Origin: Staphylospora marina | GTDB lineage: Bacteria; Bacillota; Bacilli; Thermoactinomycetales; Thermoactinomycetaceae | Length of the DNA stretch: 64,000 nt | Direction of reading: 5' to 3' | NCBI RefSeq assembly: GCF_003856495.1 | Contig: NZ_CP034118.1 | Span: 910,001-974,000, forward strand | Part shown: piece by piece, positions 2,129 through 15,313 of the stretch | How the letters are laid out: each line of letters begins with the position of its first letter | Position numbering within the stretch: position 1 is the stretch's first letter | Notes under the pieces: generated by a model | Databases searched by the model: none | The model's input: only the letters and a program-made list of their open reading frames with translations | Told to the model about the DNA's origin: nothing | Translations under genes and position numbers: made by a program

Positions 2129-2955
2129 TGAAGATCGCGTTTTCCCCTTGTCCCAATGACACGTTCATTTTTCACGCCTGGGTGCACGGCTTGGTGCCCG
2201 GGGCGCCGAAATTGGAGGTCACCTACGCGGATATCGATGTGACCAATGAGCTGGCCACCCGGCCGGACGGACCCGATGTGCTCAAAATTTCCTGTGCGGC
2301 CTTGCCGTGGGTGTTGGACCGGTATGCACTGGTGCCGTGCGGCGGTGCATTGGGCAAAGGGTGCGGGCCGCTCATCCTGACCCGTGAACCGGTCATACCG
2401 GCCGATCTGTCCGGGAAACGGGTGGCCATTCCGAGCGAGCGGTCCACGGCGTATTTGCTGTTCCGATTGTGGACGTCCGGACATGTTTCCGGTGGTGTGG
2501 GTGAAATCACGGTGATGCCGTTCCACGAAATCATGCCGGCCGTGAAAGAAGGTCGGGTGGATGCCGGGCTGGTGATCCACGAGGCCCGTTTCACCTATCC
2601 GCAATACGGGCTTCACATGTTGGTGGACCTGGGTGAATGGTGGGAAGCGGACACCGGGCTGCCGATTCCGTTGGGGGCGATCATTGCCCGGCGGACGTTG
2701 GACCGTGAGACCATCGCAGGCTGGATTCGCGCCTCGCTCGATCATGCCTGGACACATCCGGAAGCTTCCATGGAATACATCCTGAAGCATGCCCAGGAGA
2801 TGGACCCTGAGGTGGCAAAAGCCCATATTCGCCTGTATGTGAATGAGTACTCCGCCAACCTCGGGGACGGCGGCAGGGACGCCATCGGCACCCTGCTGAC
2901 CCGCGCGGCGAAGGAAGGACTGGTTCCCCCGTTTGATCCGGCGAGCCTGGAGTAG
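2125..2955 (+). CDS. mqnD: 1,4-dihydroxy-6-naphthoate synthase
   Basis: A 276-residue protein with a periplasmic-binding-protein-like fold. MqnD converts cyclic dehypoxanthine futalosine to 1,4-dihydroxy-6-naphthoate in menaquinone synthesis. The family N-terminus FSPCPNDTFIFHAW is clear, followed by the KISCAALPW and GLPIPLGAI stretches. Translation starts at ATG 2125, inside the mqnB stop codon, with GGGAG 8 nt upstream; the next codon is also ATG. A longer reading in this frame from 1825 is only read-through under mqnB. The gene ends in a convergent region with two large inverted repeats before the multicopper oxidase. Confidence 0.93.
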   Translation: MMKIAFSPCPNDTFIFHAWVHGLVPGAPKLEVTYADIDVTNELATRPDGPDVLKISCAALPWVLDRYALVPCGGALGKGCGPLILTREPVIPADLSGKRVAIPSERSTAYLLFRLWTSGHVSGGVGEITVMPFHEIMPAVKEGRVDAGLVIHEARFTYPQYGLHMLVDLGEWWEADTGLPIPLGAIIARRTLDRETIAGWIRASLDHAWTHPEASMEYILKHAQEMDPEVAKAHIRLYVNEYSANLGDGGRDAIGTLLTRAAKEGLVPPFDPASLE

Positions 2956-3033
2956 ACGGCCCATCCAATCTATTCCCGATGCTTTCGTTCTTTGGGAGCA
3001 TGTACACTTGAGGCTGCTTGCATGGTTGGGGAA

Positions 3034-3088
3034 CCGGAAACGGTTTCAAGGGAATAACAGTGAGGAGCGAGTCTGAAACCGTTTCCGG
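3034..3088. repeat. 15-bp inverted repeat with 25-nt loop
   Basis: Arms 3034-3048 and 3074-3088 are exact complements. Each arm holds a GAAAC-GTTTC-type dyad resembling LacI-family operators. It lies between the convergent mqnD and multicopper oxidase genes, just before the larger inverted repeat at 3103-3152. It may be part of a double terminator or a protein-binding site. Confidence 0.6.
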
Positions 3089-3102
3089 CAAACAGGCTTC
3101 GG

Positions 3103-3152
3103 AAACCGCAAACCCCTGCCAAGAATGATGAAATGGCAGGGGTTTGCGGTTT
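3103..3152. terminator. Bidirectional terminator, 19-bp perfect stem
   Basis: Arms 3103-3121 and 3134-3152 are perfect complements around a 12-nt loop. Position between the convergent mqnD (+) and multicopper oxidase (-) fits a terminator for both. No strong U-tract follows on either strand, so efficiency is uncertain. Confidence 0.65.
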
Positions 3153-3165
3153 GTATGAATGCCGT

Positions 3166-4626
3166 TCAATCCGGGTGATTGCCCGATTTGGTGCCGATCC
3201 GATGCGGGGTGGTTACCCCTTCGTAGTTGATCATCATGGACATCCCGAGATAGGCGTGAGTCAGGTTGTGGCAATGGATCATCCACAAGCCGGGATTGTC
3301 CGCCAGGAAGGCGATTTCATAGCTTTCGTCCTGATTCACGTTGACGGTGTCCATCACCAGCGGATGCGGAAGCGGAGCACCGTTCTTGCTCAGCACGGCA
3401 AAGCGGTGTCCGTGCAAATGCATCGGATGGGGGGCGCCGCCTTTGGCCACGATGCGCAACCGGATCCATTCTCCTTCCCTCACGACGATCGGCGGGATTT
3501 CATGCATCACTTTTCCGTTGATCGTGAACCGGTGCGGAAAGCTCCAATCCAGCTCCAGGGTGTGCGTCTGGTCAAACGATTTCGGCGCGGGAAGCGGAGA
3601 CCGGGAGGCGGCATACCGGGTCAGATCCAGTTCCGGCCAACGGTTGCCGTCGGATGCGGGAGGTTCCGGGCCCCGGCCCAGCACCACCGACTCTTTCTTT
3701 TCGCCACCGGTGATCTTGACGGCTCCCTGCGCAGGCATGTTCACCAGCAGATCCAACCGCTGCCCGGAACCGACGGGGATCCGGGCTTTTTCCACCGGAG
3801 GGGGGTTCATCAGATCATTTCCGTCGATGGACACCACCTTCACCGGGGCCCCGGAGACCGTCAATCGCTCGGTGGAGTTCCGGCTGTTGATGACGCGCAG
3901 ACGGACGGTTTCCCCCGGATCGGCATGGACGTGAAGCCGGTTGGCCAGATTGGCCAGCTGTTCGTCGTCCAGCTCCTGCAGCAAGACCGTCACGTCTTTG
4001 TCGTAAGCAAACGTCGGCTTTTTCGGTTCCACCACCAGTTTGCCGATCAAGCCCTTTCTCGCTTGAAGAGAGCTTTGCTGGTGGGAATGATACCAATAGG
4101 TTCCCGCATGACGCGCAATCCATTCGTACGTGAAGGTCTCACCCGGACGAATCGCGTCCTGTGTCACTCCGGCCACTCCGTCCTGGGAGCAGGGGAGGAT
4201 CACGCCGTGCCAGTGAATGGTGACGCCTTCCCGGATGTTTTCGTTTTTCACATGCACGATGACCCGATCGCCTTCCTGGACACGCAGTTCCGGCTGCGGA
4301 TCCGGTCCGTAAAACATCCATGCGTCTTCCACCGTTTTGCCCGAATCCAATTGCAAAGAGCCTGCTCTGGCCGTCAAATGGAAGGTTTTGACCGGTTCAC
4401 CCGCTTGGGGTTTTTCTTTCAGATCGGTACAGGACACCGCATTTGCGGTTTTTTTCCCGTGTGACGACGGGTGATGCCCTCCCGCGGTGACATCATGCTC
4501 TTCCGGCATGTGGGGACCGCAGGCGGAAAGAAGCAGGGCAAAGGCGGAAAACAGCTTCACCAGGCGGAATGCCGTGAAACGAATTCGCCGTCTCTTTCCC
4601 TTTGCGTCAACGGTTGGCTTCGTCAT
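3166..4626 (-). CDS. Multicopper oxidase, lipoprotein
   Basis: A 486-residue cupredoxin-domain oxidase. All copper-site motifs are present in order: HWHG, HSHQQSS, HPMHLHGH, and HCHNLTH ending with the axial Met of the type-1 site (LGM). The N-terminus has basic residues, a hydrophobic stretch and a lipobox ending LSAC (Cys36), so it should be anchored on the outer face of the membrane. Such enzymes oxidise metals or phenols using O2; the substrate is not visible. The start is ATG 4626, because AGAGGTGAT lies upstream at suitable spacing; the TTG at 4632 is too close. No copper chaperone gene is adjacent. Confidence 0.88.
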   Translation of the reverse strand: MTKPTVDAKGKRRRIRFTAFRLVKLFSAFALLLSACGPHMPEEHDVTAGGHHPSSHGKKTANAVSCTDLKEKPQAGEPVKTFHLTARAGSLQLDSGKTVEDAWMFYGPDPQPELRVQEGDRVIVHVKNENIREGVTIHWHGVILPCSQDGVAGVTQDAIRPGETFTYEWIARHAGTYWYHSHQQSSLQARKGLIGKLVVEPKKPTFAYDKDVTVLLQELDDEQLANLANRLHVHADPGETVRLRVINSRNSTERLTVSGAPVKVVSIDGNDLMNPPPVEKARIPVGSGQRLDLLVNMPAQGAVKITGGEKKESVVLGRGPEPPASDGNRWPELDLTRYAASRSPLPAPKSFDQTHTLELDWSFPHRFTINGKVMHEIPPIVVREGEWIRLRIVAKGGAPHPMHLHGHRFAVLSKNGAPLPHPLVMDTVNVNQDESYEIAFLADNPGLWMIHCHNLTHAYLGMSMMINYEGVTTPHRIGTKSGNHPD

Positions 4627-10831: not shown

Positions 10832-12595
10832 ATGAAAGTGGTGTTGTCAACGCTCAATGCCAAATACATTCACACCTCGCTGGCCCTCCGGTATCTGAAG
10901 GCATTCAGCGGTCGGGAGTTTGACATGGAGATTGCCGAGTACACCATCAAGGACCCGGCGATGAACATTGTCTCCGACCTGTACGGAAGAGCTCCGGATG
11001 TCGTCGGCTTTTCCTGTTACATCTGGAACATCGAAGAGACCGTCACCGTCATCGACATGCTGCGCAAGGTCAAACCCGATGTGAAGATCGTGTTGGGCGG
11101 ACCTGAAGTCTCTTACGATACCGAATATTGGATGGAGCGATTGCCTCAGGTCGATTTCATCGTGGTCGGCGAAGGGGAGGAAACGTTTCACCATCTGCTT
11201 ACCGAACTGAGGGGCGACGGGAATTTCCGTTCCGTGTTCGGACTTGCCTGGCGCAAGGAAGGCCGGACGGTGATCAATCCTCCCAGACCCAAGTTGGATT
11301 TGAACCGCATCCCGTCTCCGCATCGTTTTGCGGAGGATTTGCCTCACCTTCCGAACCGGGTGGTCTATTTCGAAACCAGCCGGGGTTGTCCGTTCAATTG
11401 CCAATTCTGCCTTTCCAGCATCGAGGTGGGCGTGCGCTATTTTGACATCGAACGGACGAAGGAAGATTTGTTGTACCTGATCCGAAACGGTGCGCGGCTG
11501 ATCAAGTTCGTCGACCGCACGTTCAACATCCGGCGGGATTATGCCATGGAAATCTTCCGGTTCCTGATCGAGAACCACGGCGGATGTGTCTTTCAGTTCG
11601 AGATCACCGCGGACATTCTCCGGCCGGAAGTGGTCGATTTCCTCGCCGAACATGCGCCGCCCGGCATTTTCCGCTTTGAGATCGGTGTGCAGTCCACCAA
11701 TGATCCCACCAATCTGGCCGTGAAACGCCGCCAGAATTTCGAAAAGCTCTCCCGGACGGTGACCCGCATCCGGGAAAGCGGGAAAATCGTCCAGCATCTG
11801 GACTTGATCGCCGGCTTGCCGCTGGAGGACTACGAAACGTTCAAAAAAACCTTCAATGATGTGTTTGCCTTGCGGCCGGAAGAATTGCAGCTTGGATTTT
11901 TGAAGATGTTGCGGGGCACCGGCCTGCGGCGGGAGGCGGACAAATGGGGATATGTGTTCATGGAGCGCGCCCCGTATGAAATTCTGGGCAGCGACGTTCT
12001 TCCGTTTTCCGACATCCTTCGCATCAAGCGGGTGGAAGATGTGCTGGAGAAATATTGGAACGCGCATCGCATGGACCATACCGTCGAATATCTTCTGAAG
12101 CACGAATTTCCGTCTCCGTTTGACTTTTTCCAGGAATTCGGGGACTACTGGGAAGAACGGGGCTGGCAACGGATCGGTCACCAACTGGAGGATTTGTTTT
12201 CCCGGTTGTGGGAATTTCTCGGCCGGCGCGGCACCGGTCACTCCGACATCATTCTCGGTCTGATGAAATACGATTTCTATCTCAACCATCGTCACCGCCC
12301 CCGAAAGGTGTGGTGGGAGAAGAAGGTGGACAAAGAGCGGCAATCCCGCTTGGTGCGGCTCGCGGTGGAGCACCCCGATCGGGTGTCCGGTGATTTTTCA
12401 ACGATCGGCATGACGGAACGGGACATGTACAAGCATGCCGTGGTGGAAGTGCTTCCGTTTGATCTGGAACACTATCTGAAGAGCGGTGAAACGGTCGAAC
12501 GGGAGACGGCCTTGTTCGCGGTGTACCGTCCCGATGTGGAACGTCCGGTGCAGTGTTACACGATGGTCTTGGAAGAAGAGACGGCCGGATTGTGA
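10832..12595 (+). CDS. B12-binding radical SAM protein with DUF4080
   Basis: A 587-residue protein of three parts: an N-terminal cobalamin-binding Rossmann domain (about 1-140, with VLGGPEVS and VVGEGEETF), a radical SAM barrel with the cluster motif CPFNCQFC (about residue 190), and a C-terminal DUF4080 region. Proteins of this build are found across Firmicutes and presumably do methylation or other radical chemistry; the substrate is not known to me. The start is ATG 10832 behind GAGGTGGAAGG. No terminator is visible between its stop and the hairpin array that begins 26 bp later, so transcripts could run into the array. Confidence 0.85.
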   Translation: MKVVLSTLNAKYIHTSLALRYLKAFSGREFDMEIAEYTIKDPAMNIVSDLYGRAPDVVGFSCYIWNIEETVTVIDMLRKVKPDVKIVLGGPEVSYDTEYWMERLPQVDFIVVGEGEETFHHLLTELRGDGNFRSVFGLAWRKEGRTVINPPRPKLDLNRIPSPHRFAEDLPHLPNRVVYFETSRGCPFNCQFCLSSIEVGVRYFDIERTKEDLLYLIRNGARLIKFVDRTFNIRRDYAMEIFRFLIENHGGCVFQFEITADILRPEVVDFLAEHAPPGIFRFEIGVQSTNDPTNLAVKRRQNFEKLSRTVTRIRESGKIVQHLDLIAGLPLEDYETFKKTFNDVFALRPEELQLGFLKMLRGTGLRREADKWGYVFMERAPYEILGSDVLPFSDILRIKRVEDVLEKYWNAHRMDHTVEYLLKHEFPSPFDFFQEFGDYWEERGWQRIGHQLEDLFSRLWEFLGRRGTGHSDIILGLMKYDFYLNHRHRPRKVWWEKKVDKERQSRLVRLAVEHPDRVSGDFSTIGMTERDMYKHAVVEVLPFDLEHYLKSGETVERETALFAVYRPDVERPVQCYTMVLEEETAGL

Positions 12596-12620
12596 TGCTT
12601 GCACAGCTCGATTCCGTCAA

Positions 12621-13943
12621 CACTGCCGGTCCATCCCCTGTGAGTGCCTTTGCCATCGCAACGAAACGAGCAGGGGATGGACTCGGCAAAGATGCCAATG
12701 CAGAGAATGCGGTCGTTATTCCCCGCTCCGTTCCACAGCTGTCGCAAAGTCACTCGCGGGGAACAGCGACCGACATGCACGGCAACACGGCCGGAACACT
12801 GCCGGTCCATCCCCTGTGAGTGCCTTTGCCATCGCAACGAAACGAGCAGGGGATGGACCCGGCAAAGATGCCAATGCAGAGAATGCGGTCGTTATTCCCC
12901 GCTCCGTTCCACAGCTGTCGCAAAGTCACTCGCGGGGAACAGCGACCGACATGCACGGCAACACGGCCGGAACACTGCCGGTCCATCCCCTGTGAATGCC
13001 TTTGCCATCGCAACGAAACGAGCAGGGGATGGACCCGGCAAAGATGCCAATGCAGAGAATGCGGTCGTTATTCCCCGCTCCGTTCCACAGCTGTCGCAAA
13101 GTCACTCGCGGGGAACAGCGACCGACATGCACGGCAACACGGCCGGAACACTGCCGGTCCATCCCCTGTGAGTGCCTTTGCCATCGCAACGAAACGAGCA
13201 GGGGATGGACCCGGCAAAGATGCCAATGCAGAGAATGCGGTCGTTATTCCCCGCTCCGTTCCACAGCTGTCGCAAAGTCACTCGCGGGGAACAGCGACCG
13301 ACATGCACGGCAACACGGCCGGAACACTGCCGGTCCATCCCCTGTGAATGCCTTTGCCATCGCAACGAAACGAGCAGGGGATGGACCCGGCAAAGATGCC
13401 AATGCAGAGAATGCGGTCGTTATTCCCCGCTCCGTTCCGCAGCTGTCGCAAGGTCACTCGTAAAGAACAACGACCGACATGCACGGTAACACCGCGGAAC
13501 ACTGCCGGTCCATCCTCTGTGAATGCCTTTGCCATCGCAACGAAACGAGCAGGGGATGGACCCGGCAAAGATGCCAATGCAGAGAATGCGGTCGTTGTTC
13601 CCCGCTCCGTTCCGCAGCTGTCACAAGGTCACTCGTAAAGAACAACGACCGACATGCACGGCAACACCGCGGAACACTGCCGGTCCATCCCCTGTGAGTG
13701 CCTTTGCCATTGCAACGAAACGAGCAGGGGATGGCCACGACAGAGATGCCAATGCAGAGAATGCGGTCGTTATTCCCCGCTCCGCTCCGCAGCTGTTGCA
13801 AAGTCACTCGCGGGGAACAACGACCGGCATGCATGGCAACACGGCCGGAACACTGCCGGTCCACTGCCGGTCCATCCCCTGTGAGTGCCTTTGCCATCGC
13901 AACGAAACGAACAGGGGATGGACTCGGCAAAGATGCCAATGCA
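12621..13943. repeat. 176-bp tandem repeat array (7 full units plus one partial), two hairpins per unit
   Basis: Units start at 12621, 12797, 12973, 13149, 13325, 13500, 13675 and 13851; spacing is 176 bp, or 175 for units 5 and 6. Each full unit holds hairpin H1 (in unit 2: arms 12800-12816 and 12847-12864, one bulge, 30-nt loop) and hairpin H2 (arms 12887-12902 and 12932-12947, one mismatch and one G-U, 29-nt loop). Unit 8 keeps only H1 and has an 11-bp duplication at its start. Inner units are almost identical; outer units diverge. The array fills the gap between the radical SAM gene and the end of pbuX. 176 is not a multiple of 3, and the open frames inside have no ribosome-binding sites, so it is not coding. 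Confidence 0.95.
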
Positions 13944-13952
13944 AACAAATAT

Positions 13953-13979
13953 GCCCTGTCCCGATGCTTGGGACAGGGC
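13953..13979. terminator. Terminator between the array and pbuX
   Basis: A 10-bp GC-rich stem, GCCCTGTCCC with GGGACAGGGC, around a 7-nt loop. T-rich sequence follows on both strands. It most probably ends the minus-strand xpt-pbuX transcript and may also stop transcription coming from the repeat array. Confidence 0.75.
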
Positions 13980-14011: not shown

Positions 14012-15313
14012 TCAGGATTCGGACGCTTTGGTTTCCTTGCCGGCTGCCAGGGAGAGGCCTTTTGTCAGCCGGAAGAAGAGATGCAGGAACATGGCGGTGA
14101 GGCTTCCAGCCACGATTCCGCTGTCCGTGAGGACTTTGATGCCTTTGGGCATCGCCTTGAAGAGGTCCGGAACGACCGTGACCCCCAGACCGATGCCGAC
14201 GGAGCAGGCGATGATCAACAGATTTTCATTGTCGGTGAAATCGACTTCGCTCAGGATCCGGATGCCCGATGCGATCACCATGCCGAACATGGCCACCATC
14301 GCGCCGCCCAGGACCGGGTTCGGGATGACCGTCGTGACGGCGGCGATTTTCGGAACCAGCCCCAGCAGCATCAAAATGCCGCCGGCGGCGAAAATGACAT
14401 TGCGCGTTTTGACCCCCGAAAGTTGCACCAGACCGACGTTTTGAGAGAAGGTCGTGTACGGGAAAGCGTTCATGAAGGCACCGATCAGCGTGGCGATTCC
14501 CTCCGCCCGGTAGCCGCGGACGAGATCATCCGGCTTCACTTCTTTGTCGCAGATTTTGCCGAGAGCCATGAACACGCCGGTGGATTCCACCACGCTGACG
14601 ATCGACACCAGGATCATGGTGAGGATGGCGCTCACTTCAAACGAAGGAGCGGCGATGAAAAGCGGCTCCGGCAGATGGAACCAGGAGGCATTGGACACAG
14701 CGGAGAAATCCACTTTTCCCAACAGCCATGCGGCAAACGTTCCGGTCACCAGTCCCACCAAGACGGCGACGGCGCGCAGGAATCCGGTCGAAAAACGATG
14801 AACGATCAGGATGAGAGCCAACACGCCGAATCCCAGCAGCAGGTTTTCGGAGGAGCCGAAATCGGGAGCTCCGTCTCCGCCGGCGAGATTGTTGACGGCG
14901 ACCGGGATCAGGGTGATGCCGATCAGGGTGACGACCGATCCGATCACCACCGGGGGGAAGAAGCGGATGATCTTGCCGAATACCCCGGAAAAAGCGAGAA
15001 GAAACAGACCGGATGCCAGGATCGCTCCGTAGACGGCGGGCATGCCGTGCGCCGATCCGATGGCGATGATCGGACCGACCGCGGTGAACGTGCATCCCAA
15101 CACGACCGGGAGACCGATTCCGAACCAGCGGTTCTTCAGCACTTGCAAAATGGTGGCGATGCCGCAGGTCAGAAGGTCCACGGCAATCAACCATGCGGTT
15201 TGTTCAGTGGAAAGGTTCAGGGCTCCGCCGATGATCAGCGGCACGACCACGGCTCCGCCGTACATGGCCAGCACATGTTGGAAGCCCAGGGAAAGGATTT
15301 TGGCTTGATTCAC
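14012..15313 (-). CDS. pbuX: Xanthine permease (NCS2 family)
   Basis: A 433-residue polytopic membrane protein of the nucleobase:cation symporter-2 family, about 14 hydrophobic segments. Typical stretches are the N-terminal LGFQHVLAMYGGAVVVPL and the NCS2 motif QNVGLVQLSGVKTRNV. It imports xanthine, possibly other oxopurines, by proton symport. The start is GTG 15313, with AGGAGTG 7 nt upstream inside the end of xpt; only 6 bp separate the genes, so they form one operon under the guanine riboswitch at 15913-16108. Confidence 0.92.
   Translation of the reverse strand: MNQAKILSLGFQHVLAMYGGAVVVPLIIGGALNLSTEQTAWLIAVDLLTCGIATILQVLKNRWFGIGLPVVLGCTFTAVGPIIAIGSAHGMPAVYGAILASGLFLLAFSGVFGKIIRFFPPVVIGSVVTLIGITLIPVAVNNLAGGDGAPDFGSSENLLLGFGVLALILIVHRFSTGFLRAVAVLVGLVTGTFAAWLLGKVDFSAVSNASWFHLPEPLFIAAPSFEVSAILTMILVSIVSVVESTGVFMALGKICDKEVKPDDLVRGYRAEGIATLIGAFMNAFPYTTFSQNVGLVQLSGVKTRNVIFAAGGILMLLGLVPKIAAVTTVIPNPVLGGAMVAMFGMVIASGIRILSEVDFTDNENLLIIACSVGIGLGVTVVPDLFKAMPKGIKVLTDSGIVAGSLTAMFLHLFFRLTKGLSLAAGKETKASES

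Follow-up and report, generated by a model that had tools for sequence, protein, structure and literature searches.

The RAYT transposase accounts for REP repeats of the GTAG class; among intergenic stem-loop repeats such as ERIC, YPAL and Efa-1, some are called MITEs. Passages of PMC2267715 give lengths of 127 bp for ERIC and 169 bp for YPAL, and describe predicted stem-loops for families of the ERIC, YPAL and Efa-1 type. The parts of PMC8266576 and PMC2817692 that deal with REP and BIME sequences accompanied by RAYT describe short, imperfect, intergenic palindromes, present in dozens of copies, featuring mismatches within the stem and organized in regular arrays, where different hairpin variants alternate. 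These features are shared by a hairpin family, found mainly in Thermoactinomycetales, the order of Staphylospora marina, the organism of the window (the whole analyzed stretch of DNA, 64,000 nucleotides long). The tandem array located in the window is probably a BIME-like expansion: a REP-like DNA hairpin, non-autonomous and dispersed over the genome, would have been multiplied at this site by recombination, and its core would be read in folded form by a putative protein.

Tandem Repeats Finder places the array at 12619-13943, with a period of 176, 7.5 copies and 95% matches. Hairpins were located by R2, a covariance model built from 40 sequences of several genera: each 176-bp unit contains H1, on the + strand, followed by H2, on the - strand, and seven such units are followed by a terminal H1. 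The eight H1 are located at 12625-12687 (unit 1, 75.7 bits), 12801-12863 (unit 2, 76.9 bits), 12977-13039 (unit 3, 69.2 bits), 13153-13215 (unit 4, 76.9 bits), 13329-13391 (unit 5, 69.2 bits), 13504-13566 (unit 6, 65.8 bits), 13679-13741 (unit 7, 67.4 bits) and 13866-13928 (terminal, with no H2 partner, 76.7 bits). The seven H2 are found at 12710-12771, 12886-12947, 13062-13123 and 13238-13299 (units 1 to 4, 43.4 bits each), at 13764-13826 (unit 7, 44.9 bits), and at 13414-13476 and 13589-13651 (units 5 and 6); these last two are decayed, as they score 29.9 and 28.6 bits, vs 43.4-44.9 for the other five. The original prediction of a 176-bp tandem array, with two hairpins per unit, is confirmed by the two programs, and its division into seven complete units and one H1-only unit is borne out by the R2 matches. 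Its count of 15 hairpins also stands, although only 13 of them are well preserved.

When one unit is used as query, H2 matches H1 on the opposite strand, and the two align through the whole core; in the alignment, the H2 of unit 1 features the A.G variant of the core, described below. Judged from these matches, H1 and H2 are one family in opposite orientation, rather than two independent designs: H2 is a diverged copy of H1, so that the 176-bp unit is a pair of related hairpins, about 88 bp each. Units 1-4 are mutually 99-100% identical, identity between units 5 and 6 is 98%, and unit 7 shares 88-94% with the other units. This pattern suggests that the array was amplified in two or more rounds.

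Upstream of the array, at 10832-12595 on the + strand, a gene encodes a B12-binding radical SAM protein with DUF4080 (Pfam PF02310, PF04055, PF13311); downstream, at 14012-15313 on the - strand, the convergent neighbor encodes a xanthine/uracil permease (Pfam PF00860). A terminator scan, which reports 4 sites in the region vs 2.0 (sd 1.4) in shuffles, finds no site between the end of the radical SAM gene (12595) and the array, in agreement with what had been claimed, and one between the array and the permease gene, at 13953-13979, where a terminator-like hairpin can be read in either direction. At this locus, the array would at most extend the 3' end of the radical SAM transcript by a structured tail. 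A coding array was rejected, in line with the absence of coding logic already noted: 176 bp is not divisible by three, which keeps any ORF from continuing through the whole array. The ORFs inside the array do not exceed 175 aa; another one, of 248 aa, extends beyond it.

Folded as RNA, the 176-nt unit reaches -83.5 kcal/mol, whereas 200 shuffles average -57.8 (sd 3.9); on the opposite strand, z is -5.3. H1 alone, folded as DNA, scores z = -6.7 and -5.6 on the two strands, relative to shuffles; H2 alone is not significant as DNA (z = -1.5 and -1.6), since 17 and 14 of 200 shuffles, respectively, fold equally well. In the H1 fold, G and A face G and A above the long stem: these bases may be read as sheared G.A pairs. 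No Rfam family matches the hairpins in the stretches tested, where one search was extended to E 5, and a tRNA search found nothing.

Stems differ widely between genomes, yet remain paired, and show compensatory changes. Shuffle controls overstate significance for related sequences: with this proviso, the stem covariation score is 0.626, not attained by any of 500 shuffles (0.186, sd 0.014), nor by slid controls (maximum 0.250), while by a weaker measure, the number of pairs changed on both sides, the observed 19 is reached by 11 of the 500 shuffles. The interior, GAGTGCCTTTG-loop-CAACGAAACG, is nearly fixed, with one unpaired position switching between C.A and A.G. An R2 search of 84 chosen loci gave 157 matches, 150 of which were aligned, in 106 distinct rows: among the 105 sequences with letters at position 24/65, 83 feature C.A, 17 A.G, 3 A.A, 2 T.A and none C.G. 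In one genome of the order, G039, both states of the core are found on the same stem (8 C.A, 7 A.G, 1 T.G). Switching between C.A and A.G is not expected from simple palindrome maintenance, and points to the folded strand as the likely target of selection.

Mismatches within the stems show no strand bias of G.T over C.A: 55 G.T vs 64 C.A cells are counted in set A1 (52 chosen copies), and 35 vs 26 in set A3 (40 chosen copies), each being a selection among the copies. This approximate equality speaks against a strand-specific RNA. As no excess of G.U is seen on one strand, a locus-specific RNA role, either as a sponge or as an RNase target, finds no support.

In the genome of S. marina, 66 matches are found with the one-unit query, and 82 with the model R1 (E<=0.01). 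The latter correspond to 78 sites, after subtraction of 4 opposite-strand matches at the same site; 64 sites are located outside the window. Copies are either single or clustered, with 3-13 copies per cluster. Within clusters, neighbors are mostly spaced by 82-95 bp; the spacing is 105-112 bp in L029 and L030, and L024 contains two gaps, of 121 and 133 bp. Strands strictly alternate in the window array and in one L023 group, are mixed in L024 and in the other L023 group, and run head to tail in L022, L029, L030 and L031. When 30 clusters were built from 76 of the 78 sites, two weak ones being dropped, 26 were free of overlap with the calls of a purpose-made ORF caller; the ORF calls that overlap the other four are taken to be over-extended or spurious frames.

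Relatives do contain the conserved hairpin, whose absence from them had been named by the original prediction as an argument for neutrality: of 42 genomes searched in the order, 14 give R2 matches at E<=1e-5, and the richest contain 118, 68, 55, 45 and 33 copies. In a sample of the class, the family is present in 14 of 299 genomes, 12 of the 14 being from the order. Two genomes of families outside the order, G096 and G200, have one or two matches each, with long stems around a recognizable core: by their sequence these matches look genuine and, taken as such, show that the family is wider than the present account covers. Members of this kind are L163:1501-1561 (G200), flanked by A/T runs and similar to a two-way terminator, and L164:1501-1567 (G096).

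Exact core matches in named genomes occur in 47 stretches, 42 of which are from Paludifilum halophilum, one from Kroppenstedtia guangzhouensis and 4 are strays. The Kroppenstedtia stretch (L113) is a true member, at 51.5 bits. The strays, from Pseudomonas, Verrucomicrobia and Coriobacteriaceae, are treated as chance matches: L103 and L128 give no match to the model at E<=0.05, while L123 and L125 reach 24.6 and 17.7 bits by the short core alone. Both L113 and the strays are excluded from the Paludifilum counts. From copies with identical flanks, we infer that G041 is Paludifilum. In this organism, the hairpin is found at 37 places between ORF calls and at one inside. The gaps involved are tandem in 28 cases, convergent in 6 and divergent in 3, vs 89, 15 and 22 for the other gaps: the difference is not significant (Fisher p = 0.20 for divergent, 0.58 for convergent), and a bias toward the 3' ends of genes was rejected on this basis. 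Plasmid and phage records contain no match to the hairpin, and no viral contig contains it, when searched by exact patterns.

In Paludifilum, the hairpin occupies the center of a 137-142 bp element, with ends CTAGAAGC(G/A)TTGTGA. Arms were counted around core matches, allowing up to 4 mismatches out of 15, or 3 out of 13. Those of the CTAGAAGC type flank both sides of 38 of the 43 Paludifilum matches, and one side of the other 5; in G039, where a strict core pattern catches 17 matches from 20 stretches, they are found on both sides of 8, on one side of 7 and on neither side of 2. A different frame surrounds the hairpin in G037: arms of the TAGGGCGTGTCTG type are present on both sides of 14 of 15 matches, and the frame ends, TAGGGC(G/C)TGTCTG, are unrelated to CTAGAAGC. 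Neither frame is found around any of 5 copies from G001, nor around any of the 32 S. marina copies outside the window caught by the strict core pattern; a search of the S. marina genome for CTAGAAGC-ended elements, with up to 1 mismatch, gave no match to the end pattern. The MITE-like frames of three relatives, along with dispersal of the family in the S. marina genome and in 13 other genomes of the order, and with the conserved hairpin interior, favor the selfish repeat and the protein-binding array among the options first listed.

The 22 Paludifilum copies picked for CTAGAAG and CT(T/C)CTAG ends show no further duplication outside CTAG, which may be either a duplicated target or the end of the element. 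In CTAG-ended elements from G039, a GCGAGACCGGGAACGGAGTGACCTGGCGAGACTTGTGC-like repeat is found inside one arm, or replaces it (L171:700-950 and 2945-3190; L201, L204, L207, L216), indicating that these elements are mosaics. Ends of the CTAGAAGC type are also seen where contigs of G031 break off; the DNA next to them is different, and may be that of the parent insertion sequence. Behind these ends, a possible gene start is visible by eye (L165:1-165, and the ends of L166 and L168).

The profile for Y1 transposases, PF01797, also takes in other IS200-type enzymes. It is matched in 7 of the 14 genomes containing the hairpin, vs 15 of the 28 hairpin-free genomes of the order. Y1 transposases are present in the copy-rich G041, G037 and G001, and were not found in 7 of the 14, including G039 and S. 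marina, whose genome gives no match. An origin from RAYT or IS200 is unsupported for S. marina.

A purpose-made detector finds no CRISPR array in the window, where the array consists of one 176-bp unit repeated. The absence of CRISPR-like spacers, as originally stated, holds for the window array; other copies of the hairpin, though, adjoin the ends of CRISPR arrays. At 2405.7-2411.4 kb of the S. marina genome (L021:7700-13400), ten groups of a first CRISPR repeat are found in tandem, with genes for Cas6 and Cas_APE2256 about 6 kb away. Repeat orientation marks the leader and trailer ends of CRISPR arrays, and was used to judge which end is the distal, or trailer, one. In 8 of these ten groups, a hairpin is located 68-72 bp beyond the distal repeat, and the constant distance indicates that it was duplicated along with the CRISPR array. 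None of six further groups of this repeat has a hairpin at the distal end (8 of 16 overall), though in two of the six a hairpin follows the opposite end, at a distance of about 160 bp. The second CRISPR repeat is accompanied by a hairpin in all of its three groups, at 94, 26 and about 0 bp. Relative to the adjoining CRISPR repeat, the hairpin is inverted in the second type compared with the first, and copies adjoining the second are followed, as judged by eye, by separate hairpins with T runs. In other genomes, a CRISPR array is found at 3 of 112 scanned loci, two being the same site; the 112 loci are not all distinct sites, and some contain no hairpin.

Some features of these clusters may be described separately. 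Between the CRISPR groups of L021 lie leader-like stretches, which contain a second palindrome. One of the groups lacks the full hairpin (L021:10980-11040): by eye, the left arm is kept, and what followed it has been lost between short direct repeats, a loss that resembles slippage over a hairpin. In Paludifilum halophilum, L122:2438-7467 contains nine short CRISPR arrays within 5 kb, and one hairpin element between two of them; many short arrays are similarly arranged in the S. marina cluster, so that the same layout is seen in another genus.

These observations bear on alternative explanations. The hairpin beyond the distal repeat in 8 of the ten clustered groups of the first repeat and in all three of the second, and the single hairpin amid nine short Paludifilum arrays, could indicate that the family belongs to CRISPR biology, for instance by delimiting CRISPR arrays, or serving in adaptation, at their trailer end. 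Such a role appears extremely improbable: the spacing of 68-72 bp is that of a hairpin copied with its array, this end is free of the hairpin in the other six groups of the first repeat, few loci of other genomes are near CRISPR arrays, and the window array itself has no CRISPR. A CRISPR-associated function is weakened accordingly, and the association is treated here as a curiosity. The location of hairpins at distal ends of CRISPR arrays may also be seen as an indication that they are RNA elements, either terminators or 3' stabilizers, forming the tail of the radical SAM mRNA at this locus and the 3' ends of genes, or of CRISPR precursors, elsewhere. A terminator-like site is absent before the window array and present after it; AAA is found just 5' of the stem in 25 of the 52 S. 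marina copies of A1, equivalent to TTT after the stem when the opposite strand is read (only 2 of the 52 have TTT after the stem on the + side), and A and T runs flank the distant relative L163. We consider this explanation unlikely, as stems feature no one-strand excess of G.U, none of the five window rows of A1 has a T tract, and gene orientation around Paludifilum copies is not significantly biased. Moreover, orientation relative to the CRISPR repeat changes with the repeat type, and next to the second type it is separate hairpins that carry the T runs.

The neutral minisatellite, which the original prediction had kept as its alternative, fits the tandem amplification of the unit: the near identity of units 1-4 and of units 5-6 is that expected from recent slippage or unequal exchange, and two H2 have lost most of their score. 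An array without any role, whose arm pairing is kept by template-switch correction of quasi-palindromes, is nevertheless very unlikely. Correction of this type would perfect the core too, yet C.G is never found at position 24/65, and families with different stems retain the core, a conservation not explained by neutrality.

A BIME-like expansion of a dispersed hairpin repeat, read in folded form, would have the following history. A pair of H1 and H2 variants, in opposite orientation and about 88 bp apart, would have landed between the two convergent genes, and would then have increased in number through unequal recombination, probably over two or more rounds. The family may spread inside miniature transposons, an arrangement seen in relatives only, with insertion sequences supplying the transposase in trans; copies of the S. 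marina genome would once have moved in the same way. Duplication together with neighboring DNA, such as CRISPR arrays, would provide a second route. A putative protein, able to recognize the folded core as single-stranded or cruciform DNA, would keep the core conserved.

Comparison with known repeats may be summarized as follows. A literature search, by titles and the beginnings of abstracts, found nothing on this hairpin family. A GC-rich stem, and A/T runs beside some copies, are also features of two-way transcription terminators; unlike these, the hairpin conserves about 30 nt of its interior, and the five window rows lack a T tract. The Paludifilum elements of 137-142 bp, and those of G039 and G037, resemble ERIC, YPAL and Efa-1, as the hairpin lies between inverted repeats; in contrast to them, one core is common to two frames with unrelated ends, and neither frame surrounds the S. 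marina copies examined. Palindromic repeats tagged by CGTC, as described in the relevant part of PMC3733652, similarly have no dedicated transposase, but their stems are of 8-9 bp, and the CGTC tag is missing here: near the stem end it is found in 15 of 116 copies, below the approximately 28% expected by chance.

The architecture resembles that of REP and BIME sequences, with some differences. The hairpin is about 63 bp long, vs the 20-50 nt given in the relevant part of PMC8266576. It has no GTAG tag (GTAG or CTAC occurs within 24 nt of either stem end in 6 of 116 distinct copies, when approximately 28% would be expected by chance, for uniform composition), and no Y1 transposase was found in half of the genomes containing it, S. 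marina included. Finally, its interior is nearly fixed between genera, while stems change. The family resembles a BIME by architecture, is placed outside the REP/RAYT group by tag and enzyme, and is found inside MITE-like frames in three relatives. Tentatively, the core might be the recognition site, as a folded single strand, of a non-Y1 recombinase or of a host protein; the family could then be a third large class of REP-like repeats, beside those tagged by GTAG and CGTC, kept across several families of Bacilli, riding unrelated MITEs and building alternating arrays by itself. The interest of the family, which R2 is able to detect, lies in a well-kept folded core: a REP-like architecture and a conserved interior, in a genome where no Y1 enzyme is found, offer a clean test of how such repeats are maintained and spread.
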